Positions 6,113-58,736 of a DNA stretch of 63,234 bases are shown piece after piece (within the stretch, counting starts at the first letter, position 1; each line of letters opens with the position of its first letter). The stretch lies in assembly GCA_020723345.1 (NCBI GenBank), contig DYJA01000031.1, positions 1-63,234 of the forward strand. Reading direction: 5' to 3'. Both the position numbers and the translations under genes were made by a program. This stretch comes from Candidatus Aquidulcis sp. GTDB taxonomy: Bacteria > Chloroflexota > Anaerolineae > UBA4142. Under the pieces are notes generated by a model. The model had not been told where the DNA came from, did no database searches, and saw only the letters and a program-made list of their open reading frames with translations.

Positions 6113-6132
6113 CCGACAAGGAGGATCGAGCG

Positions 6133-42130: not shown

Positions 42131-42154
42131 GATTGACTCATTGACGGAGATAAC

Positions 42155-42733
42155 ATGAATAAGACAGATTTCTTACTCGTCGGCGTTGGCGGACAAGGTG
42201 TGCTGACCGCGAGCGATATTGTCGCGGAAGTGGGCATGGCGTTGGGGCTGGACGCGAAGAAAAGCGAGATTCACGGTTTTTCGCAGCGCGGCGGCATCGT
42301 GGATTCGCACGTGCGCTGGGGTGCGCGCGTCGCCGCGCCGATGGGCGAAAAGGGCAACATTGATTACCTGCTCGCGTTCGAATTGATGGAAAGTGCGCGC
42401 TGGGTCGAGTACCTGAAATCGGGCGGCGCGGTCATCGTCAATCGCCAGCGCATCATTCCGCTCTCCGCGTCCGCCGGGGACGCGGTGTACCCCCCAGACG
42501 AGGCGATCGCGCAAGTGTTATGCGCGCGAACGGATCGCGTGATCTACGTGGATGGCTTGGAAATCGCGAAAGGACTGGGGAACAAAAACCTGGCGAACAC
42601 TGTGCTCTTGGGCGCGCTCGCGCGCGAGCTGGGTGTGGATCCGGAGATCTTTCTCGACGTCTTGGTCAAGCGCGTGCCGCAAAAGTACGTCGAGGAAAAC
42701 AAGCAAGCGTTTTGGAAGGGGATAGGCAAGTAA
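42155..42733 (+). CDS. iorB: indolepyruvate:ferredoxin oxidoreductase beta subunit
   Basis: 192-residue gamma/beta domain subunit of 2-oxoacid:ferredoxin oxidoreductases. LLVGVGGQGVLTASDIVAE at the N terminus is the family motif, with SEIHGFSQRGGIVDSHVRWG near residue 40 typical of IorB. Forms the enzyme with IorA. The ferredoxin reduced here could feed the Bam or second AOR complexes. Confidence 0.92.
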   Translation: MNKTDFLLVGVGGQGVLTASDIVAEVGMALGLDAKKSEIHGFSQRGGIVDSHVRWGARVAAPMGEKGNIDYLLAFELMESARWVEYLKSGGAVIVNRQRIIPLSASAGDAVYPPDEAIAQVLCARTDRVIYVDGLEIAKGLGNKNLANTVLLGALARELGVDPEIFLDVLVKRVPQKYVEENKQAFWKGIGK

Positions 42734-42737
42734 TTTC

Positions 42738-42793
42738 AGATTTCAGATTTCAGATTGCTGATTTCGTCAATTCCAATCTGAAATCTGAAATCT
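42738..42793. repeat. perfect 19-bp spacer hairpin of word ATTTCAG
   Basis: Arms 42738-42756 and 42775-42793 are exact complements built from the 7-8 bp word ATTTCAG. Further copies of the word flank both arms. Confidence 0.8.
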
Positions 42794-42823
42794 AAATTCT
42801 GAAATCTCAAAGGGGAGGGAGCA

Positions 42824-44158
42824 ATGGCAAAGCAAACGCAAAAACCGATGATTTGGAACAAGGACGCGGAGACGATGCCGCGCGATCAGTTAGAGCGACT
42901 CCAACTCGAGCGGTTGCAGCAGACCGCCGAACGGGTCTACCGCACGGTCCCGTTTTATCAGAAAGCGTTCGACGCGCGCGGATTGAAGCCGAGTGAGATC
43001 AAGTCGCTGCAAGACCTAGCCAAACTGCCATTCACAACCAAACAGGATCTGCGCGACAATTATCCGTTCGGCATGTTGACCGTGCCGCTCGACCGGGTCG
43101 TCCGCGTCCACGCGACGAGCGGCACGACCGGCAAGCCGACGGTGAGTCCGTACACCGCCAAAGACATCGAGTTGTGGGGCGAGGTGATGGCGCGCGTCTA
43201 CACGGCAGCGGGAGTGACGTCGCGAGACGTGGTGCACAACGCGTACGGCTATGGCTTGTTCACCGGCGGTTTGGGCTTTCACCTCGGCGCGGAAAAAATT
43301 TGCGCGACCGTGATTCCAGTCTCCGGCGGTTTGTCGAAGCGCCAGATCATGCTGATGGAAGATTTCGGCGCGACGGCGCTGACCTGCACCCCATCGTACT
43401 CGCTCGTCCTCGCCGAGACGGCGGAGGACATGGGCGTGAACTTTGCGGAACGGATGAAAGTCCGCGTCGGAATTTTCGGCGCAGAGCCGTGGACCGACAA
43501 GATGCGCGAGGAAATCGAAGCCAAATTGAATCTCGAAGCGTTCGACATCTACGGTCTCGCGGAGATGATCGGTCCGGGGGTTTCGATTGAATGTCCGTAT
43601 CACGAAGGACTGCACATCGCCGAGGATCACTTTTTGCCGGAACTGATCAACCCAGACACCGGCGAGCCGGTCAAAGAAGGCGAGAGCGGCGAACTCGTCT
43701 TCACCGCGCTGACCAAGGAGGGGATGCCGCTCTTGCGCTATCGCACCCGCGATCGCGTGGTGCTCAATCGCGAAAAGTGCGCGTGCGGTCGCACGATGAC
43801 GCGCATGAGCAAAGTGCGCGGGCGCACCGACGACATGCTCATCATTCGCGGCGTGAATGTTTTCCCCTCGTCGATCGAAAGCGTCTTGCTCACATGCGAG
43901 GACCTCGAGCCGCAATACATCATCATCGTCGACCGCCAAAAGGATCGCCTGGACGAACTCGAAGTCTGGGTGGAAGCGTGCTCCGAGTTGTGGCAGCGCG
44001 GCGAATATTTCGTGAAAGAAACCGAGAAGCGCATCGTCAAGGATTTGCTCGAAACGCTGGGCGTGTCCGCCAAAGTCAAAGTCACCGAGCCGCACAGCAT
44101 CCAGCGCAGCGAGGGCAAGGCAAGGCGGATCATCGATCGACGCGAGTTGGGCAACTAG
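42824..44158 (+). CDS. paaK: phenylacetate-CoA ligase
   Basis: 444-residue AMP-forming aryl-CoA ligase of the PaaK type. P-loop [14 protein letters not shown] near residue 94, [18 protein letters not shown] near residue 139, [17 protein letters not shown] near residue 244, YRTRDRV near residue 306 and [19 protein letters not shown] near residue 330. Ribosome site GGGGAGGG. It follows iorAB, so phenylacetate or indoleacetate made by transamination routes, or taken up, would be activated here. Exact aryl acid unknown. Confidence 0.93.
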
Positions 44159-44250
44159 TTCGATAGTTGGATCGTTCGATAGTTGGCTAGGTGACTGGTT
44201 GGTTCGCGAATTCCGAACTGCCAAACCAACAAACTATCCAACTACACGAG
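44159..44250. repeat. spacer repeat of words GATAGTTGG and ACTATCCAAC
   Basis: GTTCGATAGTTGG is iterated on the left, and CAAACCAAC and ACTATCCAACTA on the right. Best stem is GTTGGTT/AACCAAC. Fills the paaK to HAD-ECH gap; no gene seen. Confidence 0.5.
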
Positions 44251-44258
44251 GAATCGTA

Positions 44259-46172
44259 ATGGAAATCAAAACTGTGGGCGTGGTCGGGTGCGGGCTGATG
44301 GGCGCGGGGATCGCGCAGACGATCGCGGAGGGCGGCTATGCGACGATCGTGCGCGAGCCGACCCAGGAATTGTTGGACAAGGGACTGGGACGCATTCGCG
44401 ATTTTCTGGCGAAGGGCGTGGAGAAAGGAAAGGTTTCTCCCGCGCGCCGCGATGAGGTGTGGGCGCGCATCAAAGGTACGACTGACTTGGCTGGCTTGGG
44501 CGACTGCGATTTGATCGTCGAAGCAATCGTCGAGGTGCGCGACGCCAAACGCGCGCTCTTTGCCGATCTCGATCGCGCGTGCAAACCCGGCGCGATTCTC
44601 GCGACGAATACCTCGTCGTTCAAAGTCGCGGATTTCGCGGCGGCGACCCAGCGCCCGAAACTCGTGGCGGGGCTGCACTATTTTTTCCCGTCCGTCATCA
44701 ACAAACTTTTGGAAGTCGTGCGTACCGACGCAACCGCGCCGGACGCGATCGACGCGCTGATGAATTTTGCGCGCCTCACCGGCAAATTGCCGATTCTCGT
44801 GCGCGACGCGCCGGGGTTCGCGGTCAATCGCTACTTTGTGCCGTGGCTGAACGAAAGCGTCCGACTCTTGGACGAAGGCGTCGCGAATATTCCGACGATC
44901 GACGCGGCGGCGCGCGACGCGTTCAATATCGGGATGGGTCCCTTCGCGCTGATGAACGCGACCGGCGTGCCGATCGCCTTTCACAGCGCGGCATCCCTCC
45001 ATGAATCGTTGGGCAATTTCTACGCGCCCGCGCCCGGACTCAGAAAACAATTCGATTCCGGCAAGCCATGGGAAATCGTTGGCGATGAAGATGCCTCGCG
45101 CAAGCCAGCCGTCGCCGACCGATTGCAAGGCGTCGTGTTCGGCATCGCGGCGCGTCTGGTCGAAGAAGAGGTCGCGAGTGTCGAGGACACGGAGCGCGGC
45201 GCGCTAATCGGCTTGCGTTGGGCAAAGGGTCCATTCGGAATGATGAACGACCTGGGAATCAAGCGCGCGCACAAACTCGTCGAGCGAATCGAAAAACAAT
45301 GTCCTGGGTTTGCGCCCAAACTCCTTCGCACGCAAGCCACGCGCGGCGAACCGTGGACATTGCGCGATGTGCGCTTGTCCATCGAAGGGCAAATCGCGAG
45401 CATCACGATGAGCCGCCCCGAAGCGCTAAACGCGCTCAACGGCAAGGTGCTGCGCGAGTTGAAAGAGACGCTCGCCGCAATCCGCGCAAATCGCGAGGTG
45501 CGCGTGGTGATCCTCACCGGCGAAGGCGATGCGTTTGTTGCCGGCGCGGACATCAAGGAAATGCAGCAACTCGCGGCGAAGCCCGCGGCGATCCGCGCGT
45601 TCACCGCGTTTGGTCATCGCGTCATGCGCGACATCGAGACCTTGCCGCAGCCGGTCATTGCCGCGATCAACGGCTTTGCGCTCGGCGGCGGGATGGAAAT
45701 CGCGCTCGCGTGCGACATTCGGCTGGCATCGTCCAGCGCGCGGCTCGGCTTGCCCGAAGTGGGGCTGGGAATCTTTCCGGGTTTTGGCGGGACGCAGCGC
45801 GCGGCGCGCTTGGTCGGGCGCGGCGCGGCGTCGCAACTCATCTTTAGCGGCGATCCGATCAGCGCGGACGAAGCCGCGCGGATCGGCGTCGTCAATCGCG
45901 TCGTGCCGCCCGCCGCGTTGATGGCGGAGACGCGCAAGTTGGCGGCGCGCATCGCGTCGCGCGCGCCGGTCGCGGTCGCCAAAGCCAAAGCCGCGATTCA
46001 CGCGTCGCAGCAACTGCCGCTCGATCAAGGGTTGCAGGTGGAACTCGATCGTGTCTGCGAAGCGTTCGCGACCCAGGATCGCGTCGAAGGAATGCAGGCG
46101 TTCATCGAAAAGCGCAAGCCGGTGTTCACGGGGCAACCGCCAAAACGCAAGGCGCGAAGAGCACGCGCGTAA
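44259..46172 (+). CDS. 3-hydroxyacyl-CoA dehydrogenase/enoyl-CoA hydratase fusion
   Basis: 637-residue bifunctional beta-oxidation protein. The N-terminal dehydrogenase domain has VGVVGCGLMGAGIA and its catalytic region FFPSVINKLLEVV near residue 145. The C-terminal crotonase domain (from about residue 370) has VVILTGEGDAFVAGADIKEM near residue 416 and FALGGGMEIALACD near residue 474. The domain order is dehydrogenase first, opposite to FadB, as in several archaeal crotonyl-CoA hydratase/dehydrogenases. It could handle the steps from 2-heptenedioyl-CoA or crotonyl-CoA. ATG 44259 has CGAGGA upstream. Confidence 0.9.
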   Translation: MEIKTVGVVGCGLMGAGIAQTIAEGGYATIVREPTQELLDKGLGRIRDFLAKGVEKGKVSPARRDEVWARIKGTTDLAGLGDCDLIVEAIVEVRDAKRALFADLDRACKPGAILATNTSSFKVADFAAATQRPKLVAGLHYFFPSVINKLLEVVRTDATAPDAIDALMNFARLTGKLPILVRDAPGFAVNRYFVPWLNESVRLLDEGVANIPTIDAAARDAFNIGMGPFALMNATGVPIAFHSAASLHESLGNFYAPAPGLRKQFDSGKPWEIVGDEDASRKPAVADRLQGVVFGIAARLVEEEVASVEDTERGALIGLRWAKGPFGMMNDLGIKRAHKLVERIEKQCPGFAPKLLRTQATRGEPWTLRDVRLSIEGQIASITMSRPEALNALNGKVLRELKETLAAIRANREVRVVILTGEGDAFVAGADIKEMQQLAAKPAAIRAFTAFGHRVMRDIETLPQPVIAAINGFALGGGMEIALACDIRLASSSARLGLPEVGLGIFPGFGGTQRAARLVGRGAASQLIFSGDPISADEAARIGVVNRVVPPAALMAETRKLAARIASRAPVAVAKAKAAIHASQQLPLDQGLQVELDRVCEAFATQDRVEGMQAFIEKRKPVFTGQPPKRKARRARA

Positions 46173-46203
46173 TCTCCAATCTCCCGTTGGATAGGAGGAT
46201 GTA

Positions 46204-47445
46204 GTGACTGACGAAAAAAAGGTCGTCCGGAAAGAACTGGAGACCTCCAAAGATATGAAAAAGTTCATGGCGGATTATTACCTCGAACTCGATCACGCGT
46301 CCCAAACGGGCGAGCGCAAGATCGCGTGGTGCACGAGCGTTGGTCCTGCCGAACTATTGCGTGGCATGGGCTTTCTGGTTTACTTTCCAGAAACACATTC
46401 GGCGATGCTCGGTTCCACGCGCGCGGCGATGGATTACATCCCACACGCGAACGCGCTGGGCTACGCGCCGGAAATCTGCTCGTACCTCACGTCGGACGTT
46501 GGCGCGTTCACGCAAGGATTCACGCCGCTGACCAAGTCGTTTGGCATCAAGAGCGTGCCAAAACCTGACGTGCTGGTGTTCAACACGAATCAATGCCGCG
46601 ATGTCCAGGATTGGTTTGCGTGGTATGGCAGAAAGTTCAACGCGCCCGTCGTCGGCGTGCGGACGTACCGCGGCGTCAAAGAGGTCACCGACAGCCACAT
46701 CATTTCCATCGCCAAGCAAATCGAAAACTTGATTCAGCCGCTGGAACAAGTCGCGGGCAAGAAATTCGACATGGACGAGTTCCAGCGCGCGGTCGCGCTC
46801 TCGCGCGAATGTTCCGATTTGTGGAAGCAGGTGCTGGAGACCGCCGCGGCAATGCCCTCGCCGCTGACGTTCTTCGACGGCACGACGCTGATGGGTCCGG
46901 CGGTCGTCGGGCGCGGGACGCAGGCGGCGAACGACTTTTACCGGAAACTGCTCGCCGAGTTGCAAGAACGCGCGTACAATCACGACGGCGCGGTGGCAGA
47001 CGAGCGCTTTAGAATTTACTGGGAAGGGATGCCGATCTGGGGTCGCTTGCGCGCGCACTCTGAATTATTCGCGAACTTGAAGTCGTGCGTACTCGCGTCA
47101 ACGTACTGCAACAGTTGGATCTTCACCGCGCTCGATCCGAACGATCCGTTCAACAGCATGGCGCGCGCGTACACCGAATTGTTCATCGTGCGATCGGACG
47201 AAGCGAAAGAGCAGTACATCAAGCGCATGTTCGAATTCTTCCGCGTCGACGGGATCGTCTATCACAACGCGCGCACGTGTCCGAACAATTCAAATAGTCG
47301 GTACGGGATGCCGCAGCGACTCGAAGCGAACTCCGGCGTGCCCGCGCTCGTCATTGACGGCGACCTGAACGATCTGCGCTGCCTCTCCGACGAACAGACG
47401 AACACAAACATCGAGGCGTTTGTGGAGCGGCTGGCGGGCAAGTAG
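46204..47445 (+). CDS. 2-hydroxyacyl-CoA dehydratase/benzoyl-CoA reductase (class I-like) family subunit
   Basis: 413-residue member of the HgdB/BcrB family. These 4Fe-4S proteins accept a high-energy electron from an ATP-driven activase and dehydrate 2-hydroxyacyl-CoA or reduce aromatic rings. Conserved Cys: WCTSVGPAELLRGMGF near residue 40, NTNQCRDVQDW near residue 131 and NARTCPNNSNSR near residue 357. The start is GTG 46204 with GGAGGAT. Active enzymes usually have two homologous subunits side by side; only one is here, and the activase lies 5 kb downstream (52261). A homodimer, or a partner elsewhere, is possible. Confidence 0.83.
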   Translation: MTDEKKVVRKELETSKDMKKFMADYYLELDHASQTGERKIAWCTSVGPAELLRGMGFLVYFPETHSAMLGSTRAAMDYIPHANALGYAPEICSYLTSDVGAFTQGFTPLTKSFGIKSVPKPDVLVFNTNQCRDVQDWFAWYGRKFNAPVVGVRTYRGVKEVTDSHIISIAKQIENLIQPLEQVAGKKFDMDEFQRAVALSRECSDLWKQVLETAAAMPSPLTFFDGTTLMGPAVVGRGTQAANDFYRKLLAELQERAYNHDGAVADERFRIYWEGMPIWGRLRAHSELFANLKSCVLASTYCNSWIFTALDPNDPFNSMARAYTELFIVRSDEAKEQYIKRMFEFFRVDGIVYHNARTCPNNSNSRYGMPQRLEANSGVPALVIDGDLNDLRCLSDEQTNTNIEAFVERLAGK

Positions 47446-47455
47446 AGCAAATGAA

Positions 47456-47522
47456 TGGGACACTGATTCACACAGATTAACACAGATAATAAAATCTGTG
47501 TACATCAGTGTTTATCTGTGTC
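47456..47522. repeat. spacer hairpin of word ACACAGATTAACACAGATAA
   Basis: ACACTGATTCACACAGATTAACACAGAT on the left is answered by ATCTGTGTACATCAGTGTTTATCTGTGT on the right. Same word family as 28248-28460. Confidence 0.7.
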
Positions 47523-47542
47523 CTATTCGAGGGAGAGAGGAA

Positions 47543-49627
47543 ATGCTAGACGGTCTCTTCAGACCCAGGTCGGTCGCGGTCATCGGCGCATCCACCAAGG
47601 AATTGCAGATTGGCAATCGCATCGTCAAGAATCTCTTGGATTTTGGATTCAAGGGTCCGATCTATCCGATCAATCCAAAGGGCGAAGACGTGCGCGGCGT
47701 CAAAGCATACGCATCTATTCTGGACGTTCCGACCGATGTAGATGTCGCGCATATCATCATCCCGGCGAAACTCGTGCCGCAGGCGATTGAAGATTGCGGG
47801 AAGAAGCAAGTCAAGTTCGTGATCTTGAACGGCGGCGGATTTGCCGAAGTCGGTGCGGAGGGCGCGGCGATCCAGGATGCGTGCATCGCCGCCGCGACAA
47901 AGAACGGCATCCGAATTATGGGTCCGAATTGTCAAGGCGTCATCAACACCGATCCGAACGTGCGCGCCTATTGCAACTTTACCTTCACCCGACCCGACCC
48001 AGGATTCATTTCGATCGTCGCGTTGAGCGGCGGCGTCGCAGAATTGATCCACCAAGCATTTGCTGAGCAAGGCATCGGGACGCGGATGTACGCCTCCAAC
48101 GGAAACGCGTGCGACGTTTCGATTCCCGAAATCTTGCGCTATTACGGCGACGACGAAGGGACGCGCGTGATCGTCTTGTACGTCGAGGGTCTGCGCGATC
48201 CCAAAACGTTCCTCGAGGTCGCGCGCGCGGTGACGCAGAAGAAACCGATCCTCGCGATGAAGGCCGGGCGCACGCTGGAAGGCGCGAAAGCCGCGGCGTC
48301 GCACACTGGCGGGATGGCGCGCGAAGACCTTTCGACCGACCTCATCTTCGACAAAACGGGCATCCTCTCGTTTCGCGACGAAGCGGAGTTGTGCCAAGCC
48401 GCCGCGGCGTTCGCCGTGCAGCCCGCGCCGCGCGGCAATCGCGTGGGAATGATCACGAACACCGGCGGACCCGCGGTCATTTCGACCGACGTGTTCGTCG
48501 GCGGCGGATTGCAGATCCCGACCCTGCCGGAGAAATCGGAAAAAATTCTCAAGGAAAACATGTTGCCCGAAGCGGCGATTCACAATCCGCTCGACGTGCT
48601 GGCGACTGCCGGACCCGCACACTTGCGCGCGGCGCTAGACGCGTTCATGGACGAGGACGCGTTCGACAGCGTTTACCTCAACCTGGTCACGCCGTTTTTC
48701 GTGGACGCCGAAGGGATCGCGAAACAAATTGTCGAAGTGAATCAAGCGCGGCGCAAACCGCTCGTCTGCAATTTGATGACGGACAGACGGCAGTGGGCGG
48801 AGACGGTCCGAATTTTGAAAGAGGGGGGCGTCCCGTGCTACAGTTTTCCCGGCACGGCGGCGCGCGCGCTCGTCGCGCTGACGCGGTACAACGCGCTCCG
48901 CTCACGCGAAATCGGCGTGGTCGCGCAGTTCGACGACGTGGCTCGCTCTCAGGTTGCCGCGATCGTTCAGCGCGCGCGCGCGGCGGGACGCACGATGCTG
49001 TCCTCGGCGGAAGTGTACAACATCTTGGGTGGCTACGGCATTCCGGTCGCGGCCTGGCGGCTTGCGGACGATGCGTCTGCCGCCGCGCGCGCCGCGACGG
49101 AAATCGGCTTTCCCGTCGTCATCAAAGCGGATACCGCGTCGATCGTTCACAAGAGCGATGTGGGCGGCATCGTCGCGAATCTGCAAGACGCCGGCGCGGT
49201 GCGCGCAACAGTCGAAGCGATGCGGAAGAAATTCGATGCGCCAGATTTGCGATTCTTCGTCCAGAAATTTTTGCCCGGCGGCAGGGAGATTATCATCGGC
49301 GCGAAAGCGGAACCGGAACTCGGACACCTGATCATGTTTGGACTCGGCGGCATCTACGTCGAAGTGCTGAAAGATGTCGTCTTCCAACTCACGCCGGTCA
49401 CAGATGTTGAAGCGCGCGCGATGCTTTCCTCGATCAAGGCGGCGCGATTGCTCAAAGGCGTCCGCGGCGAAAAAGGCGTGAGTGAAAACGCGCTGGTCGA
49501 AATCATTCAGCGGCTTTCGCAACTGCTCACCGACGCACCGATGATTCAGGAATTGGATCTCAACCCGGTCATCGCGTTTGAAGATCGCGCCTTCGTCGCG
49601 GACGCGCGCGCGTCGGCAGCGCAGTGA
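47543..49627 (+). CDS. ADP-forming acyl-CoA synthetase, fused alpha-beta
   Basis: 694-residue NDP-forming acyl-CoA synthetase. N-terminal CoA-binding domain (RPRSVAVIGASTKELQIGNR near residue 7), NGGGFAEVG near residue 94, catalytic His in KAAASHTGGMA near residue 250, and a C-terminal ATP-grasp domain (GFPVVIKADTASIVHKSDVGG near residue 523). Such enzymes make ATP from acyl-CoA or activate acids with only one phosphate bond spent. In an energy-limited anaerobe either direction fits. GGGAGAGAGG precedes ATG 47543. Confidence 0.9.
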   Translation: MLDGLFRPRSVAVIGASTKELQIGNRIVKNLLDFGFKGPIYPINPKGEDVRGVKAYASILDVPTDVDVAHIIIPAKLVPQAIEDCGKKQVKFVILNGGGFAEVGAEGAAIQDACIAAATKNGIRIMGPNCQGVINTDPNVRAYCNFTFTRPDPGFISIVALSGGVAELIHQAFAEQGIGTRMYASNGNACDVSIPEILRYYGDDEGTRVIVLYVEGLRDPKTFLEVARAVTQKKPILAMKAGRTLEGAKAAASHTGGMAREDLSTDLIFDKTGILSFRDEAELCQAAAAFAVQPAPRGNRVGMITNTGGPAVISTDVFVGGGLQIPTLPEKSEKILKENMLPEAAIHNPLDVLATAGPAHLRAALDAFMDEDAFDSVYLNLVTPFFVDAEGIAKQIVEVNQARRKPLVCNLMTDRRQWAETVRILKEGGVPCYSFPGTAARALVALTRYNALRSREIGVVAQFDDVARSQVAAIVQRARAAGRTMLSSAEVYNILGGYGIPVAAWRLADDASAAARAATEIGFPVVIKADTASIVHKSDVGGIVANLQDAGAVRATVEAMRKKFDAPDLRFFVQKFLPGGREIIIGAKAEPELGHLIMFGLGGIYVEVLKDVVFQLTPVTDVEARAMLSSIKAARLLKGVRGEKGVSENALVEIIQRLSQLLTDAPMIQELDLNPVIAFEDRAFVADARASAAQ

Positions 49628-49635
49628 GCCGTATC

Positions 49636-49680
49636 CAGTATTCAGTGTTCAGTGGACTGGATACTGAACACTGAATACTG
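49636..49680. repeat. perfect 18-bp spacer hairpin of word CAGTATTCAGTGTT
   Basis: Arms CAGTATTCAGTGTTCAGT (49636-49653) and exact complement (49663-49680), loop GGACTGGAT. Same word family as 8020-8092. Confidence 0.8.
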
Positions 49681-49697
49681 AACACCGAAGGTGGAAC

Positions 49698-51245
49698 ATG
49701 GCGGCTTGGCTCAACCTGGGTCAGATTCTCAAGGTCAATGCGAAAAAGAATCCGAATACCATCGCGCTGAAAGATAGCGCGCGGGCGTATACGTATCTGC
49801 AGACCGACGCGCGCGTCAATCGACTGGCGCACAGTTTGCTCGCGCTCGGCTTGCGAAAAGGCGACCGCGTCGCAGTGCTGCTGGAGAACAGCATCGAGAT
49901 CGTCGAGGTCTATCTGGCGACCGCGAAAACTGGGATCGTCATCGTTCCGATCAACTTTCGCTTGCTGCCGCCGGACGTTGAGTACATCGCCAACAATTCG
50001 GACGCGAAAGCGTTCATCGTCCACGACGAGTTTGCGCCGTGCATGGATGCGATCAGATCGAATCTAAAAAACATCGCGCCCGCATGCTACATCGTCGTCG
50101 GCAAACCGCGCACGGGGTACTGCGAGTACGAGCAGTGGATTGGCGGCGCGGCAGAGAGCGAACCGGAGGCGACGGTCGAACCGAAAGACACGTGGATTTT
50201 GATCTACACGTCGGGCACAACCGGAAGACCCAAGGGCGTCGTACGCTCGCACGAATCGCACATCGCGTTCTATCTCATCAACCCGATTGATTTTGGATTC
50301 GACGAGCATGACATTTGTTTGAACATCATGCCGCTGTGCCACATCAATTCGACGTTTTTCACGTTCACGTTTCTTTACATCGGCGGCTCGGTCTACGTCC
50401 ACCCCGCGCGCTCGTTCCGCGCCGAAGAAATTCTTGCGATCATCGAGCGCGAGAAGATCACCTTCATCTCGCTGATCCCAACGCATTACAGCATTATCCT
50501 GAACGCGCCGCCGCGCCAGTACGACGTCAGTTCGATCAAAAAACTGTTATGCTCCTCCGCGCCAGTGCGGAAGGAAATGAAACTCGCGATCATGGGATTC
50601 TTTCCCGGCGTTCGCCTGTTCGAAGCGTATGGCTCGACGGAGGCGGGGATCGTCACGGTGCTCAAGCCGGAATATCAAATGGCGAAACTGGGCTCGATCG
50701 GATTTGAATCGTTGGGTACCGACCTGGTCAGAATTCTAAGGGAGGACGGCAAAGAAGTCGGCGTGGGCGAAATCGGCGAGATTTATTCGCGCGGTCCGAT
50801 GCTCTTCGACGAGTACTACAAGTTGCCGGACAAGACCGCGCGCGCGTTTCGCGGCGGCTGGTTCAGCGCGGGGGATATGGGGATGCGCGACGAAGACGGC
50901 TTTTACTACCTCGTCGATCGCAAAGATAACCTGATCATCACCGGCGGCGAGCACGTCTATCCGAGCGAAGTCGAAAAAGTTGTCGGCGCGCATCCGGGCG
51001 TGTTCGACGTTGCAGTCGTCGGATTGCCGCATGAAAAATGGGGCGAGGCGGTCACCGCGATCATCATCCCCAAGGATCCCAACTCTCCGCCGACGGAAGA
51101 AGAGATCGTCGAGTTTTGCAAAGACAAGTTAGCTGGGTTCAAGCGCCCGCGCGCGGTGCGCGTGATTGCCCAGGAAGAAATGCCGCGCACCGGTTCAGGC
51201 AAGGTGTTGCATCGGGTGCTGCGGGAACGGTACGGGAGAAAGTAG
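49698..51245 (+). CDS. AMP-forming acyl/aryl-CoA synthetase
   Basis: 515-residue acyl-CoA ligase of the ANL superfamily. P-loop YTSGTTGRPKGVVRSH near residue 174, EAYGSTEAGIV near residue 313, GWFSAGDMGMRDEDG near residue 389 and the C-terminal DRKDNLIITGGEHVYPSEVE near residue 410 with the catalytic Lys in PRTGSGKVLHR near residue 498. A different branch from PaaK. It could activate benzoate, a cyclohexane carboxylate or a dicarboxylate; the sequence alone does not tell. Confidence 0.88.
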   Translation: MAAWLNLGQILKVNAKKNPNTIALKDSARAYTYLQTDARVNRLAHSLLALGLRKGDRVAVLLENSIEIVEVYLATAKTGIVIVPINFRLLPPDVEYIANNSDAKAFIVHDEFAPCMDAIRSNLKNIAPACYIVVGKPRTGYCEYEQWIGGAAESEPEATVEPKDTWILIYTSGTTGRPKGVVRSHESHIAFYLINPIDFGFDEHDICLNIMPLCHINSTFFTFTFLYIGGSVYVHPARSFRAEEILAIIEREKITFISLIPTHYSIILNAPPRQYDVSSIKKLLCSSAPVRKEMKLAIMGFFPGVRLFEAYGSTEAGIVTVLKPEYQMAKLGSIGFESLGTDLVRILREDGKEVGVGEIGEIYSRGPMLFDEYYKLPDKTARAFRGGWFSAGDMGMRDEDGFYYLVDRKDNLIITGGEHVYPSEVEKVVGAHPGVFDVAVVGLPHEKWGEAVTAIIIPKDPNSPPTEEEIVEFCKDKLAGFKRPRAVRVIAQEEMPRTGSGKVLHRVLRERYGRK

Positions 51246-51257
51246 AGATTAGAGATC

Positions 51258-51279
51258 AGAGATTGACGCTCCAATCTCT
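51258..51279. repeat. spacer hairpin AGAGATTG/CAATCTCT
   Basis: Perfect 8-bp arms at 51258-51265 and 51272-51279, with the word AGATTAGAGAT iterated before and TCTCTAACCTCC after. Confidence 0.55.
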
Positions 51280-51307
51280 AACCTCCAGTGCGAAAGGAAC
51301 GTGATCT

Positions 51308-52258
51308 ATGGTGACGGAGCCAAAAATCGCGGTCGTGGGCGCGGGTCCCGTCGGTGGGATTCTAGGCGCTTACCTGGCTCGTTCGGGATGCGCTATCGTC
51401 TTGTGTGATGTCGTCAAAAGCCATCTCGATGCGATCGAGCAAAAAGGACTACACATTAGCGGCGGCGCGGAACTAACGGTCGCGTTCGACCGCTTGGCGG
51501 GTTGCATTTCCGATCTCGCCAATTTTCCCGACGTGGATACGATCGTCCTATCGACCAAGGCGTCGATCATGCCGCGCCTCATTCCAGAGATCAAGGCGCT
51601 CGCGCGCCCGGACTTGCGTTTTCTCAGTTGTCAAAATGGGCTGGACAACGAGGAATACCTTGGCGAGATCTTTGGCGCGGATAACGTCTTGCGGATGGTG
51701 GTGAATTATGCGGGTGGGATCATGGGCGATGGCGAGATCAAAATGAATTTCTTCAACAAGCCCAACTACATCGGCGCGCTGACCGCGCGCGGCGAGCCGC
51801 TCGCGCGCCAAATCGCGGACATGCTCACGCGGGCGGGATTGGATACCCAGTTCACGCCCGCCATCAAAAAATACGAATGGGAAAAGGTCATCCTCAACTC
51901 CGGTCTCAGCGCGGTGTGCGCCTTGACGCGCAAGCCGATGAAAGACATGATGGACTTGGCGCAGACCGAATGCCTGGTCGAAGCCCTGGTGCGAGAAGGC
52001 ATCGCCGTCGCCGAAGCGAGCGGGATCAGATTCGACGAAGGATTCTTTGACCACTGCATGCAGTACTTGCGGAAGGCGGGCTATCACAAGACCTCGATGC
52101 ACGTCGATCTCGAACACGGCGCGCCCACCGAAATTGATTGGCTCAATGGCAAGATCGTCGAGCGCAGCCGCGCGTTGGGAATCCCCACCCCGTACAATTT
52201 TGCGATCACCGCGCTCGTCAAAGGCGCGGAGATGAAATCCGGCGCGCCGGAAGGATAA
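51308..52258 (+). CDS. ketopantoate reductase-like dehydrogenase
   Basis: 316-residue ApbA/PanE-family oxidoreductase. Dinucleotide motif VVGAGPVGGILGAYLARSG near residue 10, LSCQNGLDNEEYL near residue 99 and KYEWEKVILNSGLSAVCALT near residue 188. In this neighbourhood it may act on a 2-oxo acid of catabolism rather than in pantothenate synthesis, since no pan genes are near. It ends two bases before the activase gene, so the two are in one operon; a 2-oxoacid reductase making the 2-hydroxyacid for a dehydratase would be a sensible pair (inference). Confidence 0.83.
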   Translation: MVTEPKIAVVGAGPVGGILGAYLARSGCAIVLCDVVKSHLDAIEQKGLHISGGAELTVAFDRLAGCISDLANFPDVDTIVLSTKASIMPRLIPEIKALARPDLRFLSCQNGLDNEEYLGEIFGADNVLRMVVNYAGGIMGDGEIKMNFFNKPNYIGALTARGEPLARQIADMLTRAGLDTQFTPAIKKYEWEKVILNSGLSAVCALTRKPMKDMMDLAQTECLVEALVREGIAVAEASGIRFDEGFFDHCMQYLRKAGYHKTSMHVDLEHGAPTEIDWLNGKIVERSRALGIPTPYNFAITALVKGAEMKSGAPEG

Positions 52259-52260
52259 GG

Positions 52261-53043
52261 ATGCCCATCCCTGACGCAAAATTCTTCGCCGGGATTGACG
52301 TCGGCACGACGACGACCAAAGCAGTCCTCCTGAATGCCGATCGGCAGCTCGCGGCAAGTTTTGTCCGGCGATCAGGGACAGACCTGGGCGCATCGGCGAA
52401 CACCGCACTGGAGCAAGCGCTCGAGCGGGCGGGCAGCGCGCGCGCCGCGATCCAAGCGATCGTCGCGACCGGGTACGGCAGGCGGAATGTTTCGTTTGCC
52501 GACGACACCAAGACGGAGATCGCGTGTCACGGTTGGGGCTGTCATTATTACTATCCGGAAACGATTGCGATCGTGGACATTGGCGGACAGGACAGCAAGG
52601 TGATCAAGCTGGACGCGCAGGGCAAGACGATCGGCTTTAAGATGAATCGCAAATGCGCGGCGGGCACCGGCGCGTTCTTGGAGGACATCGCGCGTCGGCT
52701 CGATTTGCCGGTCGGCGAGTTGAATGGCTTGGCGCGCGCGGCGCGGCAGACCGCCAAGATCGGCAGTTACTGCACCGTCTTTACCGCGACCGAGGTGTTG
52801 GATCGCATCCGCCAGGGCGAGCGGACGGACGAAATCGTGCGCGGGTTGTTCGATTCCATCGTCAAGCGCGTGATGGAGATGGACGCCTTGGTCGGGAAGG
52901 TCGTGATGACCGGCGGGGTCGTCGCGTATCACGACATTGTCGCGGAACTGTTGTCCGCGCGCGTGAAAACCCAGGTTCTAGTCGCGCCGCATCCGCAGGA
53001 GATGGGCGCGTTCGGCGCGGCGCTGTTTGCGGCGGAAATGTGA
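52261..53043 (+). CDS. 2-hydroxyacyl-CoA dehydratase activase (BcrA/BadF/HgdC family)
   Basis: 260-residue ASKHA ATPase that uses ATP to send a low-potential electron to a dehydratase or class I reductase. Phosphate motif GIDVGTTTTKAVLL near residue 11, second motif DIGGQDSKVIKLD near residue 105, cluster Cys in NRKCAAGTGAF near residue 126 and GSYCTVFTATEVL near residue 165; the two Cys form the 4Fe-4S bridge of the homodimer. A single activase gene suggests a dehydratase system rather than a BcrAD pair. Likely partner: the subunit at 46204-47445. Confidence 0.9.
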   Translation: MPIPDAKFFAGIDVGTTTTKAVLLNADRQLAASFVRRSGTDLGASANTALEQALERAGSARAAIQAIVATGYGRRNVSFADDTKTEIACHGWGCHYYYPETIAIVDIGGQDSKVIKLDAQGKTIGFKMNRKCAAGTGAFLEDIARRLDLPVGELNGLARAARQTAKIGSYCTVFTATEVLDRIRQGERTDEIVRGLFDSIVKRVMEMDALVGKVVMTGGVVAYHDIVAELLSARVKTQVLVAPHPQEMGAFGAALFAAEM

Positions 53044-53469
53044 ATGGGCAAATTCAAGTTCTTCATTCCGCTCCGCGTCCGCTTTGCCGAGACGGACGCG
53101 CAAGGTCACGTCTTCTTCGGACATTATTTGACGTACTTTGACGAAGCGCTGACGCAGTACCAGCACGCGATCGGTTTTACGTACCAGGATTTTCTCGACG
53201 CGGGGGTGGACTTTTTCTATATTCACGCCGAGTGCGATTACAAATCGCGCGCGTTCTTCGAGCAAGTGTTGAACGTCCACGCGCGCGTCGGCAACATCGG
53301 TAACTCGAGCGTCACGTTCGAGTTCGCGATTCACAAGGAACACGACGACGAATGGGTGGCGACCGGCAAGATCGTCGCCGTCGTGATCGATCCGCAAACG
53401 AAAAAGCCGGTACGCGTGCCGGAGATGTTTCGCGAAGCGGTTGCGAAATTCGAAATTCAAAATTCGTAA
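53044..53469 (+). CDS. YbgC/4HBT-like acyl-CoA thioesterase
   Basis: 141-residue hotdog thioesterase with RFAETDAQGHVFFGHYLTYF near residue 13, the 4-hydroxybenzoyl-CoA thioesterase signature including the catalytic Asp. It starts directly after the activase stop. The last residues KFEIQNS are encoded by the left arm of spacer repeat 53447-53514, so the C terminus seems to have been redefined by repeat insertion. Confidence 0.85.
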   Translation: MGKFKFFIPLRVRFAETDAQGHVFFGHYLTYFDEALTQYQHAIGFTYQDFLDAGVDFFYIHAECDYKSRAFFEQVLNVHARVGNIGNSSVTFEFAIHKEHDDEWVATGKIVAVVIDPQTKKPVRVPEMFREAVAKFEIQNS

Positions 53470-54798: not shown

Positions 54799-55079
54799 TG
54801 GAAATTTCTGTTCGATTAGACGAACCGGCTTGGCGGCTGGTTGGACAAAAGACGCTTGCCGTTCGCTTGACTGGGGAAACAAACACGCTGGCAGACGTGA
54901 TTGGCGAGTTGGGGAAGATGTTCGCCGGTCTCGAAGCGGAATTGCGTGGACAAACCGGCGATTTTGTTCCGTACAGTTTATTTCTGAACGATCAAATGGT
55001 GCGGTGGGTTGATGTTGAGAAAACGCGCGTCAAGGATGGCGATCGCCTGCGCGTGATCCTGCCGATTGCGGGGGGATGA
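54798..55079 (+). CDS. MoaD-like protein of the third AOR module
   Basis: 93-residue ubiquitin-fold protein ending in IAGG, the MoaD sulfur-carrier C terminus. It precedes the FAD oxidoreductase and AOR genes. In Aromatoleum the aor operon also carries a moaD-like gene, so this one probably serves tungstopterin assembly for the AOR. Low identity to the copy at 32408-32692 suggests each module keeps its own carrier. Confidence 0.83.
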   Translation: MEISVRLDEPAWRLVGQKTLAVRLTGETNTLADVIGELGKMFAGLEAELRGQTGDFVPYSLFLNDQMVRWVDVEKTRVKDGDRLRVILPIAGG

Positions 55080-55100
55080 GAAAAGTCAAGGAGATTCGAA

Positions 55101-56465
55101 ATGCACTATGTCATTGTGGGCAACAGCGCGACGGGAATCGGCGCAGCGGAGTCCATCCGCGCGAGAGATCCGCACGCGCGCATCACGATCATCGGCGATG
55201 AGCCGGAGCACGTCTACGCGCGTCCGCTCATCTCGCACTATATCGCGGGCGAAGTGACGCCGGACGAAATGCGCTATCGCCCCGCCGACTTTTACACGCG
55301 GCTGCGCCTTGAGACGCGGCTGAATATACGGGCACAATCGTTTGACGCGAACGCGCGCGCGATCACGCTCGGCGATGGCGCGACGATCCAGTACGATAGA
55401 CTTTTGCTCGCGACCGGCTCGAGCCAAAAATTCCCGCCGATCAAAGGGCGCGACTTGCCAGGTGTTTTCGATTTTTGGACGCGTGCGGACGCGGAAGCGA
55501 TTCGCGCGCGCATCCACGCGCGCGGCGTGCGCGCGGCAGTCGTCATCGGCGCGGGACTCGTGGGGATCCAAGCCGCGTACGGTTTGCGCGGCGCGGGATT
55601 GCAAGTCGTTCTGATCGAACTGCTGCCGTCAATCCTCAGCCGGATTCTGGACGCGCCCGCGGCGGCGTACGCGCAAGCAACGCTCGAGCACGGCGGCGTG
55701 CGCGTGCTGACCGGGCGCGCGGTCGCGGAAATCCTGGGGTCGGCGGAGCAAGGCGTGACCGGCGTCATGCTGAACGACGGCGCAAAGATCGAGTGTGGCA
55801 TCGTCGTCAAAGCGACCGGCGTCGCGCCGAACCTCGCGCTTGTCAAGGGCACACCGGTCGCTGCGCAGGGCGGAATCGCGGTCGATGAATATTTCGCAAC
55901 GAACGTTCCCGGCGTCTACGCCGCAGGCGATGTCGCAGAAACGTACGATGTCACGCGCGGTAAGCGGTTCGTCAACGCGAATTGGCCCAACGCGCACGCG
56001 CAAGGGCGCGTCGCGGGCTTGAACATGGCAGGCAAAGCAACGGCGTACACCGGCTCGATCGGCATGACCTCGATGCCGCTATTCGGCAAAGCGATCATGT
56101 CGCACGGCATCGTCGAGCCGGAGCCGGGCGACGAGGTGCGCGTCCGTGAATCGCGCGAGAATCAGATTTACCAGAAACTCGTCTTTCGCCAAGATCATTT
56201 GATCGGCGCGGTGATGGTCGGCGATGTTGGCATGGTTGGATGGATCAATCACGTGATGCAATCGCGCCGCCCGGTCGGCGCGCTCAAAGACGCGCTGCTC
56301 GACGGCAAAGCGGCGTACTATTCCGCGCGGCGCGCTCTGTTCAAGCAAGCAATGGAAGGCGTGGACCTGCCGTGGCGCGAGTCGCTCAGTTCGTCTGAAC
56401 GCTATAGGAAAGTTTTCAACGAGGACACGTGGGCGGAACGCGAGCGAGATGAGAGGAAATGGTAG
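55101..56465 (+). CDS. NAD(P)H/FAD oxidoreductase, AorC-like
   Basis: 454-residue pyridine nucleotide-disulfide-type flavoprotein. FAD motif VIVGNSATGIGAAESIR at the N terminus, NAD motif VIGAGLVGIQAAYGLRGAGL near residue 151, and the second FAD motif PGVYAAGDVAETYDV near residue 270. The last 100 residues form a reductase-specific domain. NirB/rubredoxin-reductase-like in type. In aldehyde oxidoreductases of the AorABC kind this subunit passes electrons to NAD. It stands 22 nt after the MoaD-like gene and 409 nt before the AOR gene, hence the assignment. Confidence 0.85.
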   Translation: MHYVIVGNSATGIGAAESIRARDPHARITIIGDEPEHVYARPLISHYIAGEVTPDEMRYRPADFYTRLRLETRLNIRAQSFDANARAITLGDGATIQYDRLLLATGSSQKFPPIKGRDLPGVFDFWTRADAEAIRARIHARGVRAAVVIGAGLVGIQAAYGLRGAGLQVVLIELLPSILSRILDAPAAAYAQATLEHGGVRVLTGRAVAEILGSAEQGVTGVMLNDGAKIECGIVVKATGVAPNLALVKGTPVAAQGGIAVDEYFATNVPGVYAAGDVAETYDVTRGKRFVNANWPNAHAQGRVAGLNMAGKATAYTGSIGMTSMPLFGKAIMSHGIVEPEPGDEVRVRESRENQIYQKLVFRQDHLIGAVMVGDVGMVGWINHVMQSRRPVGALKDALLDGKAAYYSARRALFKQAMEGVDLPWRESLSSSERYRKVFNEDTWAERERDERKW

Positions 56466-56874
56466 CGGGAGGGGTTGTCCGACGGGGTTAAGCGCGCCAA
56501 GCGCGAGCGTTTCGACTTTCTTTTCGAGAAGGAGATGCGCATCTGTATCGTCGAAAGCCCGGACTGCGAAGATGTGCGCGAGCTGGGCGAACCGGCGACT
56601 GACGTTTGGGATGATCGCGCCGACGAGTTCACTTGGTTCAGGATCAACCCGCAGAAAGAAAAACTCGTCGTTGAGCGGCACCGAGATCGCAGGACGCGGT
56701 TTGTCCACGTTGACGACAAGATAAGTTCGTCGCTCTCAGGATAATAGGGATAGTCCGTTTTGACGATTGTCGCAACCCAGTTCTTGGCGAACTTGCCTGT
56801 TGATAGCCCGCCTTTGAGATTATATCACAAGCAAACGGGTTTCGCAGCAGAAAGCAGAACCATCAGGAGATTCC
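56466..56874. other. 409-bp spacer with a probable decayed minus-strand ORF
   Basis: No intact gene. On the minus strand, from about 56820 down to 56480, two frames read like one broken small protein: NLKGGLSTGKFAKNWVAT then KTDYPYYPESDELI in one frame, and after a shift VVNVDKPRPAISVPLNDEFF followed by LRVDPEPSELVGAII in another. A TATAAT-like box (minus strand, about 56825) precedes it. The family is not recognised. The last 40 bases before 56875 hold the ribosome site AGGAG of the next gene. Confidence 0.35.
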
Positions 56875-58725
56875 ATGAAACATACACCAACCAAACCGCG
56901 CCCACTCGCGACGCTCGCGCACGTTGACCTGACGACGCGGCGTGTGGAAATTAGCGAGACGCCGCCGGAACTCGTGCGCAAGTTCGTCGGCGGGCGCGGG
57001 CTAAATATGTACTATCTCTACAAATACCTCAAGCCGAACACGGATCCGTTCGCGCCGGAGAATCCGCTCCTCATCGGCGCCGGGCTTCTCACCGGCACCG
57101 GCGCGCCGAATTCCGGACGTCACAGTATCACGACGAAATCGCCGGAATCCGGCATCCTGGGCGATTCGAATATCGGTGGCTTTTTCGGACCCGAATTGCG
57201 CTACGCCGGCATCGACCGCTTGCTCATCACAGGCAAAGCGGACGCGCCGGTCTATCTGTACGTCGAAGACGGTCGCGTCGAAATTCGCGACGCGCAAAAG
57301 TATTGGGGCACGAATTGCAGCGAAGCGACGACGCGGTTCAAGCACGACCTTGGCGCGGACGTCGAAGTGGAACTGATCGGTACGGCGGGCGAAAACAAGG
57401 TGCGCTATGCCGCGACGCGCTACGGGTTGAAGAATGCGGCGGGACGCTGCGGCACCGGCGCAGTGTGGGGATCGAAAAATTTGAAAGCGATCGCCGCGCG
57501 CGGTAACCTGGGTCTGCCGCTCGCGCATCCCGAAGACCTGCTGGCGAAATGCGTCGAACTCCGAAAGTATCTGCACCAATCGAAGGTGATTCAGACGCTC
57601 GGACGCGTCGGCACGCCGCTCTTGTACGACGTGAGCAACTTTCTCGGCGCGATTCGCACGCGCAACAGTCAGCAGACCTCCTTCGAAGAGACGCTGAACG
57701 CGGAGGAGATTCATCGGTACGTGGACAAGATGCTCAGTTGCGCGGGCTGCGTTGTCCACTGCCGCCATCGCAATTCGCTGGGCGGCGAAGGTCCCGAGTA
57801 CACCTCCCAGGTCATGGTCGGGGCGAACATCGGCATTGCGGATCCCGCGCAGGTGATCGAGTTACAAAACATCGTCAACGAACTGGGGCTGGACGTTTCC
57901 TCCGTCGGCACGTACCTGGGCTGGGCGATCGAATTGCACGAACGCGGGATGCTCGACAAGAAGATGACCGGCGGACTGGAGTTAAAGTTCGGCGATTACG
58001 TGACGGTGAAGCAGTTGATCTACGATATTGCCGCGCGGCGCGGCTTGGGCGATCTGCTCGCGGAAGGCAGCCGCCTCGCGGACAAATTCCCCGGCTCGGA
58101 AGATTTCCTCATCGCGATCAAGGGCTTGCCGCAATCCGATCCGCACGACGTGCGGTATATGAAGGCGTTCGCGCTGGGCATTGCGACGGCGTCGCGCGGC
58201 GCGGATCATCTACGCAGCCGCCCCACGCTGGAAATTTTCGATCTGCCGGCGGAGTTCACGCGACAGGTGTACGGACAGCCGGTCGATCCAAATCCAACGT
58301 CGTACACAAGCAAAGCGCTCGTCGTCACGTACAACGAAACGATTTACGCGGTCGTGGACTGCGTCGGCATCTGCAAGTTCAACTGTCACGGGTTCAACAG
58401 CCCGCGCAACTTGAACTATGATCATTTCCGCGAACTGATCTACCTCGCGACCGGCTTGGAATTCACGAAGGAAGAACTCGTGCAGGTCGGACAGCGCGTG
58501 ATCGATTTGGAGCGCTTGATCAACATGCGCGAGGGGATCACGCGCCAAGACGACACGCTGCCGGCGCGCTATTTCGACGAGCCGATGACGGGACGCCGCA
58601 CCAAGGGGCATCAGATCGATCGCGCGAAATTCGCGCAGATGCTGGACGAGTACTACGCGCTGCACAACTGGGACACGGAAGGACGACCGCCGCGCGAGCG
58701 CGTGGCAGAGTTTGAAGCCCTATGA
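56875..58725 (+). CDS. AOR-family tungsten oxidoreductase (third copy, AorB-like)
   Basis: 616-residue aldehyde:ferredoxin oxidoreductase family protein. GGRGLNMYYLYKYLKP near residue 40, SNIGGFFGPELRYAGID near residue 99 and GRCGTGAVWGSKNLKAIA near residue 193 form the pterin domain. Cluster Cys are in CAGCVVHC near residue 286 and in CVGICKF near residue 494. Shorter than BamB. It is flanked by an AorC-like flavoprotein, a MoaD-like protein and a ferredoxin, the composition of NAD-linked AorABC aldehyde oxidoreductase. Substrate may be an aromatic aldehyde such as those from amino acid breakdown. An acyl-CoA reductase role is the alternative. Confidence 0.86.
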   Translation: MKHTPTKPRPLATLAHVDLTTRRVEISETPPELVRKFVGGRGLNMYYLYKYLKPNTDPFAPENPLLIGAGLLTGTGAPNSGRHSITTKSPESGILGDSNIGGFFGPELRYAGIDRLLITGKADAPVYLYVEDGRVEIRDAQKYWGTNCSEATTRFKHDLGADVEVELIGTAGENKVRYAATRYGLKNAAGRCGTGAVWGSKNLKAIAARGNLGLPLAHPEDLLAKCVELRKYLHQSKVIQTLGRVGTPLLYDVSNFLGAIRTRNSQQTSFEETLNAEEIHRYVDKMLSCAGCVVHCRHRNSLGGEGPEYTSQVMVGANIGIADPAQVIELQNIVNELGLDVSSVGTYLGWAIELHERGMLDKKMTGGLELKFGDYVTVKQLIYDIAARRGLGDLLAEGSRLADKFPGSEDFLIAIKGLPQSDPHDVRYMKAFALGIATASRGADHLRSRPTLEIFDLPAEFTRQVYGQPVDPNPTSYTSKALVVTYNETIYAVVDCVGICKFNCHGFNSPRNLNYDHFRELIYLATGLEFTKEELVQVGQRVIDLERLINMREGITRQDDTLPARYFDEPMTGRRTKGHQIDRAKFAQMLDEYYALHNWDTEGRPPRERVAEFEAL

Positions 58726-58736
58726 TGGAGTCAAGA

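Follow-up and report, generated by a model that had tools for sequence, protein, structure and literature searches.

A lone HadB/BcrB-type subunit with its own activase: a candidate single-subunit 2-hydroxyacyl-CoA dehydratase in bacteria and archaea

The contig DYJA01000031.1 of Candidatus Aquidulcis sp. (Chloroflexota, Anaerolineae), analysed over its whole length of 63,234 nucleotides (nt) and here called the window, carries one gene for a catalytic subunit of the HGD-D family, which includes 2-hydroxyacyl-coenzyme A (CoA) dehydratases and class I benzoyl-CoA reductases, and one gene for an ATP-dependent activase:

46204–47445, plus strand: lone HGD-D catalytic subunit of the active-site (HadB/BcrB/BzdO) type; GTG start, 413 amino acids
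52261–53043, plus strand: ATP-dependent activase (CoA_E_activ), presumably akin to HgdC/FldI; ATG inside the open reading frame (ORF) 52138–53043; TIGR00241 222 bits, cut-off 125.4

We propose that these two genes probably encode a self-sufficient (R)-2-hydroxyacyl-CoA dehydratase that would have a single kind of subunit, probably as a homodimer, and would operate without an electron-storing beta subunit. The analysis shows a single gene with no partner gene, a dedicated activase, conserved cluster ligands placed by alignment, a predicted fold, and an association with 2-hydroxyacid dehydrogenase genes; from these we infer dehydratase activity, the homodimer, the electron path, the stereochemistry, and the substrate. 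A homodimeric dehydratase, which a first, sequence-only reading of the window had suggested, would be the natural form for a subunit that has no partner.

The window contains no second HGD-D gene. A search with PF06050 of the draft genome to which the window belongs (G000; 6.34 Mb, 132 contigs) found three HGD-D genes: the lone gene and an adjacent pair on contig C66 (L010, 36000–54000), consisting of a B-type and a C-type subunit gene with two activase-family genes directly upstream. The gene order on C66 is that of a class I benzoyl-CoA reductase, although both proteins fall below the listed NCBIfam equivalog cut-offs. The sequence-only reading had named a second subunit elsewhere in the genome as the result that would overturn it; a C-type gene was indeed found, but it is paired with a B-type mate of its own and adjoined by two activases, and for these reasons we dropped the C66 pair as a trans-acting partner of the lone subunit. 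With the C66 pair, this genome may have two ring-reduction systems or a further dehydratase.

To place the window among its relatives we scanned GTDB contigs, which yielded 299 stretches with a relative of any degree, and kept the best 80; the window and these 80 make up the 81 loci and proteins considered below. Within the stretches analysed, 78 of the 81 loci have no other HGD-D gene (the exceptions are L058, L064, and L070), and, because the arrangement recurs in 80 further loci, it is not a matter of chance. We then searched with PF06050 the genomes of 60 of the 80 relatives' loci (in batches of 20 and 40; mostly draft metagenome-assembled genomes). Exactly one HGD-D match was found in 11 of the 60 (3/20 and 8/40): two genomes of Chloroflexota, two of Thermoplasmatota, three of Deltaproteobacteria, two of Aminicenantes, one of Planctomycetota, and G019, which is a single 4.1-Mb contig corresponding to the whole size given for the genome. 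Four of these 11 genomes (G036, G039, G065, and G067) have exactly one TIGR00241 activase and no DUF2229 match. The results bear out, at the level of window, loci, and genomes, the earlier claim of a HgdB/BcrB-like gene without a partner. Two further candidates for a hidden partner were considered and dropped: DUF2229 proteins, which had no match in 5 of 12 genomes searched, and a non-HGD-D protein encoded next to the lone gene, since the nameable recurrent neighbours are activase, ligases, thiolase, dehydrogenases, hydratases, AOR, and ferredoxin (the survey took in nameable neighbour clusters and left aside many others made up of short, mostly antisense ORFs).

The lone protein is a member of the HGD-D family (PF06050, 210 bits against a cut-off of 28.4). 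It stays below the cut-off of HadB, its best NCBIfam model (204 bits, cut-off 750), and below the equivalog cut-offs of BcrB and BzdO (138.9 of 486.55 and 81.8 of 448.6 bits). The best 80 relatives are 58–79% identical to it over nearly their full length and come from Chloroflexota, Thermoplasmatota, Lokiarchaeota, Desulfobacterota, Aminicenantes, Planctomycetota, Zixibacteria, Bacteroidetes, and others. The family has a sharp boundary and a patchy distribution: among 298 genomes of the window's class, eight match at 692–776 bits and the next best at 352, and in the window's own family the lone gene is present in 2 of 14 genomes, the other matching genomes reaching at most 39% identity. The lone proteins are under strong constraint: 117 positions are at least 98% identical across the 81 bacterial and archaeal proteins.

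Phylogenetic analysis places the lone proteins with active-site subunits. A tree of 124 rows unites the 29 lone rows in a single, fully supported clade (100*) that sits with the active-site subunits BzdO, MbdO, and HadB; BzdN, MbdN, HadC, and DCCP lie opposite, and the split has a support of 96. In a second tree of 79 rows, from which 45 were left out (28 judged long or suspect and another 17 from the lone set), a single branch, with a support of 100, again separates the active-site subunits together with the lone clade from the rest. In the 124-row tree the lone clade is nested among the paired active-site subunits, but a 79-row tree in which all paired active-site subunits are held together is not rejected (approximately unbiased, AU, test; p 0.637); the lone clade may accordingly have arisen either by loss of the partner inside the paired subunits or as an early sister branch. 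Within the lone clade of the 124-row tree, the archaeal proteins (Thermoplasmatota, Lokiarchaeota) are sister to a Chloroflexota group together with one deltaproteobacterial protein, a grouping that points to transfer between domains. The predicted structure agrees with the placement on the active-site side: an AlphaFold2 model, for which 55 of the 81 proteins were aligned, has a mean pLDDT (predicted local distance difference test) of 91.8, and its best match in the PDB is HadB (3o3m_A; Z 49.1, 1.8 A over 391 residues, 29% identity), followed by BzdO (Z 46.0), MbdO (42.3), DCCP (32.9), and HadC (32.3). Foldseek likewise puts HadB first. In both sequence and predicted fold, the lone protein corresponds to the alpha-subunit type of component D of the 2-hydroxyacyl-CoA dehydratases.

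The ligands of a catalytic cluster are conserved. Cys43, Cys92, Cys131, and Cys359 are invariant in all 81 lone proteins, and Cys302 is present in 76. In BzdO, according to PMC11971306, Cys95, Cys128, and Cys380 bind the catalytic [4Fe-4S] cluster. In the alignment, Cys92 shares a column with BzdO Cys95, Cys131 with BzdO Cys128, and Cys359 with BzdN Cys327, where BzdO also has Cys; by alignment alone, Cys92, Cys131, and Cys359 supply the three catalytic-cluster cysteines that characterize 2-hydroxyacyl-CoA dehydratases. Glu63 is aligned with BzdO Glu65. The column of BzdO His131 holds Val in 29/29 lone rows and in HadB, unlike the alanine given for HadB at this position in PMC11971306. Two further cysteines set the lone proteins apart. 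Cys302 lies in the column of BzdN Cys263 in 27/29 lone rows, and none of the 37 paired active-site rows compared there, out of 39, has a Cys; Cys43 is present in 29/29 lone rows vs. 2/39 paired rows and lies one column off BzdN Cys36, although its column shifts by one residue between alignments and BzdO Trp46 is not surely placed. Cys43 and Cys302 are thus at or beside columns that in double-cubane subunits hold the second sub-cluster. The column of BzdN Cys36 itself holds Thr or Ser in 29/29 lone rows, and the column of BzdN Cys293, the third distal ligand, is empty in 29/29; because the latter is empty, a full double cubane in the lone protein is unlikely. These observations bear on the hypothesis that the lone protein is a small-molecule reductase of the DCCP kind rather than a dehydratase. 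DCCP is described as a homodimeric family member with an activase (PMC11971306), and so offers a precedent; with DCCP on the other side of the tree, with the Cys293 and Cys36 columns as they are, and with a score of 60 bits against a cut-off of 350 for the double-cubane model NF040772, we give this hypothesis only a very slim chance.

The lone subunit has a dedicated activase. An activase gene lies within 10 kb of the lone gene in 72/81 loci and within 300 nt in 54/81; exactly one activase ORF is present in 70/81 loci, none in ten, and three in L070, the only locus with more than one, which also carries a separate HGD-D pair. In the window the two genes are 4.8 kb apart, separated by two ligase genes and an ApbA-type oxidoreductase gene, all on the same strand; the activase had been called distant on this account, which is correct for the window and, as the 54 close cases show, is not the rule for the family. 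TIGR00241 finds four activases in the window genome: two on C66, the one in the window, and one on contig C20 near a DUF2229 protein. The cluster motif C[ASG][AS]G[TS]G is present in 73 of the 74 activases of lone loci and a second motif (CxVF) in 71, so that lone loci resemble 2-hydroxyacyl-CoA dehydratases, at the level of sequence, in having one ATP-dependent activase whose monomer carries two cluster cysteines.

The neighbourhood of the lone gene indicates what kind of substrate the enzyme may act on. ApbA-type reductases occur within 10 kb in 31/81 lone loci and in 0/30 paired HGD-D loci used as controls; flavin adenine dinucleotide (FAD)-linked GlcD-type dehydrogenases also occur within 10 kb in 31/81 lone loci, 22 of them within 300 nt; and the gene adjoining the lone gene encodes a D-isomer-specific 2-hydroxyacid dehydrogenase (PF02826) in L088 and an Ldh_2-type dehydrogenase (PF02615) in L092 and L091 (by Pfam in L092, by similarity in L091). 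Because each of these is found, four families that interconvert 2-oxoacids and 2-hydroxyacids are represented at lone loci. Counted together at E 1e-5, members of the four families occur within 10 kb in 57/81 lone vs. 2/30 paired loci (p = 7e-10), and, among loci with at least 5 kb on both sides, in 30/41 lone vs. 2/23 paired loci (p = 9e-7); both control matches are GlcD genes, in the Lokiarchaeota loci L162 and L174. The result lends weight to the earlier suggestion that the 2-oxoacid-reductase-like gene upstream of the activase supplies the 2-hydroxyacid. Within 10 kb of the lone gene there are also AMP-forming ligases (46/81 loci, on the same strand in all 46), ADP-forming ligases (43/81), and thiolases (35/81). 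AOR genes lie within 10 kb in 18/81 loci and a ferredoxin cluster in 14, and in a Desulfarculaceae genome (L109, 11219–12754) the gene immediately after the lone HGD-D gene encodes a Ser/Thr protein kinase.

Because the four dehydrogenase families are enriched at lone loci, we favour a dehydratase over a reductase. A competing hypothesis makes the lone subunit an aryl-CoA (benzoyl-CoA-like) reductase that would act on an aromatic CoA ester, by dearomatising it or by reducing it in another way, as the closeness of the subunit in fold and sequence to MbdO and BzdO and the aromatic-catabolism genes in the same window would allow; we consider this quite unlikely, since the class I reductase BzdNO has a double-cubane subunit thought, in PMC11971306, to gather electrons, and none is present here. 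HadB is moreover the best match by both sequence and fold, the conserved neighbours are 2-hydroxyacid dehydrogenases, and a single activase ORF is the rule, although activase count is not decisive by itself: the paired control loci have two activases in 9/30, one in 8, none in 12, and three in 1. Of the ring-reducing or dehydrating enzyme that the sequence-only reading had allowed for, dehydration is the more likely and ring reduction is not favoured. A second hypothesis has the enzyme running in reverse, that is, hydrating an enoyl-CoA to a 2-hydroxyacyl-CoA that is then hydrolysed, oxidised by a GlcD- or ApbA-type dehydrogenase, and decarboxylated (anaerobic alpha-oxidation). GlcD-type flavoenzymes usually oxidise 2-hydroxyacids, and the frequent GlcD-type genes (exemplified by L060, with GlcD-type FAD domains and iron-sulfur CCG domains), as well as the 2-oxoacid ferredoxin oxidoreductase and thioesterase in the gene run of the window, count in its favour; the equilibrium favours dehydration, however, and the fused hydratase/dehydrogenase and nearby thiolases fit the forward direction, so that we regard a reverse enzyme as very unlikely.

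Several points weigh against a self-sufficient dehydratase. Many loci are short, with at least 5 kb on both sides in only 41 of 81; further HGD-D matches are present in 49/60 of the relatives' genomes; and draft incompleteness could partly explain the 11/60 genomes without a partner, if the partner is unlinked. Because gaps in drafts could hide an unlinked partner, the weight rests on six single-contig chromosomes, of which only G019 is free of other HGD-D matches. The other five differ: G016 has one extra HGD-D gene, which groups with DCCP; G017 has two extra genes, side by side, that group with BzdN and BzdO; G018 has an adjacent pair with two activases (not in the tree); G015 has, besides a BzdN/BzdO-type pair, two active-site-side genes and a fragment that make up a second group; and G014 has a C-type fragment (L176, 161 bits) apart from a B-type fragment (L175) that lies beside an activase. 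In addition, a single further HGD-D gene occurs in each of five draft genomes, with a weak score that is highest against the C-type model (26–53 bits). The G014 fragment and these five C-leaning genes are the results nearest to a hidden partner; none of the five (L177–L181) and neither G014 fragment, when checked, is of the lone type. The G014 fragments may themselves be broken genes or assembly errors. The dehydrogenase association has weak points as well: within 1 kb, in long context, the contrast is weak (12/41 vs. 2/23, p 0.067); none of the four families is found in 24/81 lone loci; all four models were built from lone loci; and the paired controls are few, author-chosen, and interrelated, the lone rows likewise being related. 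Finally, known dehydratases are alpha/beta heterodimers in which, according to PMC11574389, the activase passes an electron to the beta cluster, where it is stored between turnovers, and the present results do not explain how a lone subunit gets around this.

These points bear above all on the hypothesis of a conventional heterodimer, in which the lone subunit borrows a C-type subunit encoded elsewhere, for example on C66. The C-type gene on C66 and the few relatives' genomes whose further match is a single C-type or C-leaning gene or fragment speak for it. Set against it are the 11 genomes without any other HGD-D match, including the single contig of G019; the nature of the extra genes in G016, G017, and G018, which are DCCP-like, an adjacent BzdN/BzdO-like pair, and a pair with two activases; and the fact that the lone gene has its own activase and the C66 pair has two others. 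We judge a borrowed partner unlikely, and a self-sufficient dehydratase remains the probable reading.

HGD-D genes in other arrangements were met with in the same material. L127 (4701 bases) has three in succession, two of them with very long tree branches. Three Lokiarchaeota genomes have single, divergent HGD-D genes of 383–389 amino acids (L142, L143, and L144), which group with one member of a pair of neighbouring genes in L124. Other Lokiarchaeota loci have HGD-D genes in a row, two each in L162 and L174, where GlcD genes adjoin, and three in L173; these are possibly 2-hydroxyglutaryl-CoA dehydratases.

The remaining genes of the window that bear on the system are the following:

40302–42086, plus strand: 2-oxoacid ferredoxin oxidoreductase, alpha subunit (POR_N, TPP_enzyme_C), which we take to be IorA, of the indolepyruvate type
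42155–42733, plus strand: 2-oxoacid ferredoxin oxidoreductase, beta subunit (PF01558 POR)
42824–44158, plus strand: phenylacetate-CoA-ligase-like enzyme (TIGR02155 PaaK 562 bits, below the cut-off of 646)
44259–46172, plus strand: fused 3-hydroxyacyl-CoA dehydrogenase/enoyl-CoA hydratase (PF02737, PF00725, PF00378), ending 31 nt before the HGD-D gene
47543–49627, plus strand: ADP-forming acyl-CoA ligase (ACD; ATP-grasp_5, Succ_CoA_lig, and CoA-binding domains)
49698–51245, plus strand: AMP-forming acyl-CoA ligase (FadD-like; PF00501 280 bits)
51308–52258, plus strand: ketopantoate-reductase-family (ApbA/PanE) oxidoreductase (PF08546/PF02558; TIGR00745 192 bits, above cut-off)
53044–53469, plus strand: 4HBT-type thioesterase adjoining the activase downstream (PF13279 69 bits)
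59256–60458, plus strand: thiolase, 6 kb downstream (Thiolase_N/C)
6010–7260: 6-oxocyclohexene-carbonyl-CoA hydratase (557 bits, above the cut-off of 464)

The lone gene and its activase thus stand in a same-strand run (40302–53469) that begins with the 2-oxoacid ferredoxin oxidoreductase and ends with the thioesterase. No CoA-transferase was identified among the scanned proteins of this run, and a promoter and terminator scan of the locus gave nothing decisive. Elsewhere in the window, positions 6010–29834 hold a benzoyl-CoA-pathway-like cluster that fits a class II reductase and also includes three HdrA-like proteins (below cut-off) and an AOR-family protein with a ferredoxin-like neighbour; positions 54804–59153 hold, in a row, MoaD/ThiS-like, PadH-like flavoprotein, AOR-family, and 4Fe-4S ferredoxin genes, presumably resembling the AorABC aldehyde oxidoreductase of Aromatoleum. 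The description of this genome as class II finds a basis in the hydratase, HdrA-like, and AOR genes, but is at best incomplete, in that the genome also has the class I-type pair with two activases.

On the mechanism that we propose, the ApbA-type enzyme would reduce a 2-oxoacid to the (R)-2-hydroxyacid; one of the two ligases, of which we propose the AMP-forming one, would make the CoA thioester; and the lone subunit would dehydrate it to a 2-enoyl-CoA at a [4Fe-4S] cluster held by Cys92, Cys131, and Cys359. The activase, with ATP hydrolysis, would inject one electron straight into this catalytic cluster, and the electron would be kept between turnovers, in place of a beta subunit, in the catalytic cluster or the second protomer. 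The fused hydratase/dehydrogenase and a thiolase would then continue beta-oxidation (the thiolase at 59256–60458 possibly belongs to the system and may carry out the terminal thiolysis), and the 2-oxoacid ferredoxin oxidoreductase (40302–42733) would form an oxidative branch. The substrate in this genome is probably, as a best guess, an aromatic 2-hydroxyacid, since the contig also carries genes for a 2-oxoacid ferredoxin oxidoreductase and a phenylacetate-CoA-ligase-like enzyme as well as genes of the benzoyl-CoA pathway; the likeliest source of this acid would be an aromatic 2-oxoacid such as phenylpyruvate, with the route ending at benzoyl-CoA, for which degradation genes are in the same window. 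Other lone relatives may use other 2-hydroxyacids.

A homodimer of catalytic subunits seems easier to accept for a dehydratase than for a reductase, because one recycled electron suffices. Carried further, the results would allow a widespread family of homodimeric dehydratases in which the activase fires directly into the [4Fe-4S] cluster of the active site; storage of the electron and its exchange would fall to the two protomers, perhaps aided by Cys43 and Cys302. To this view we give even chances. If it is true, the HGD-D family has a further architecture besides DCCP homodimers and the heterodimers of benzoyl-CoA reductases and 2-hydroxyacyl-CoA dehydratases; the electron-storage subunit is dispensable (a review, PMC11574389, accounts for the heterodimer as an accept-and-store device); a simpler, two-gene system is at hand for ATP-driven electron firing and ketyl-radical chemistry; and there is a route by which uncultured sediment organisms (Lokiarchaeota, Thermoplasmatota, Anaerolineae) may channel amino-acid or aromatic 2-oxoacids.

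No description of such a single-subunit dehydratase was found in the open literature searched, outside which most subscription journals lie. Three reports come near it: a "singular gene BzS1_13720" with 30% identity to FldB (PMC13416013) and a "two-component" activase/dehydratase in Anaerosomatales (PMC9686372) may touch the lone type, and an activase without catalytic subunits is reported for Geobacter metallireducens (PMC1924859). What appears to be new is the partner-free active-site subunit; the single-gene HGD-D members already known, DCCP, fall in the opposite half of the tree. DCCP/DCCP-R is like the lone type in gene content alone, one HGD-D gene and one activase, DCCP being homodimeric according to PMC11971306; it differs in its place in the tree and in its six [8Fe-9S] cluster cysteines, the full set of which is lacking in the lone rows. 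Class I benzoyl-CoA reductases (BzdNO, MbdNO, BcrCB) share with the lone type the active-site subunit fold (Z 42–46), the cluster cysteines, and the BzdO glutamate; their double-cubane (BzdN/BcrC-type) partner and two activase subunits are not found at lone loci, most of which have a single activase, and the lone proteins lack His131. Phenyllactyl-CoA dehydratase FldBC/FldI has two HGD-D subunits and a CoA-transferase; the likeness lies in the proposed aromatic 2-hydroxyacid chemistry and the position in the pathway. Closest is (R)-2-hydroxyisocaproyl-CoA dehydratase, HadBC with its activator, which shares the HadB-type fold and sequence, the three cluster cysteines, and the single activase gene. 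Component D of that system is a heterodimer of alpha and beta subunits, and the electron is received and stored by the latter (PMC11574389), whereas lone loci have no beta-type gene, and HadB has Ser and Pro where the lone proteins have Cys43 and Cys302 in the alignment. The lone enzyme would thus work like a 2-hydroxyacyl-CoA dehydratase and yet, at gene level, depart from the heterodimer of two HGD-D subunits that characterizes that family.

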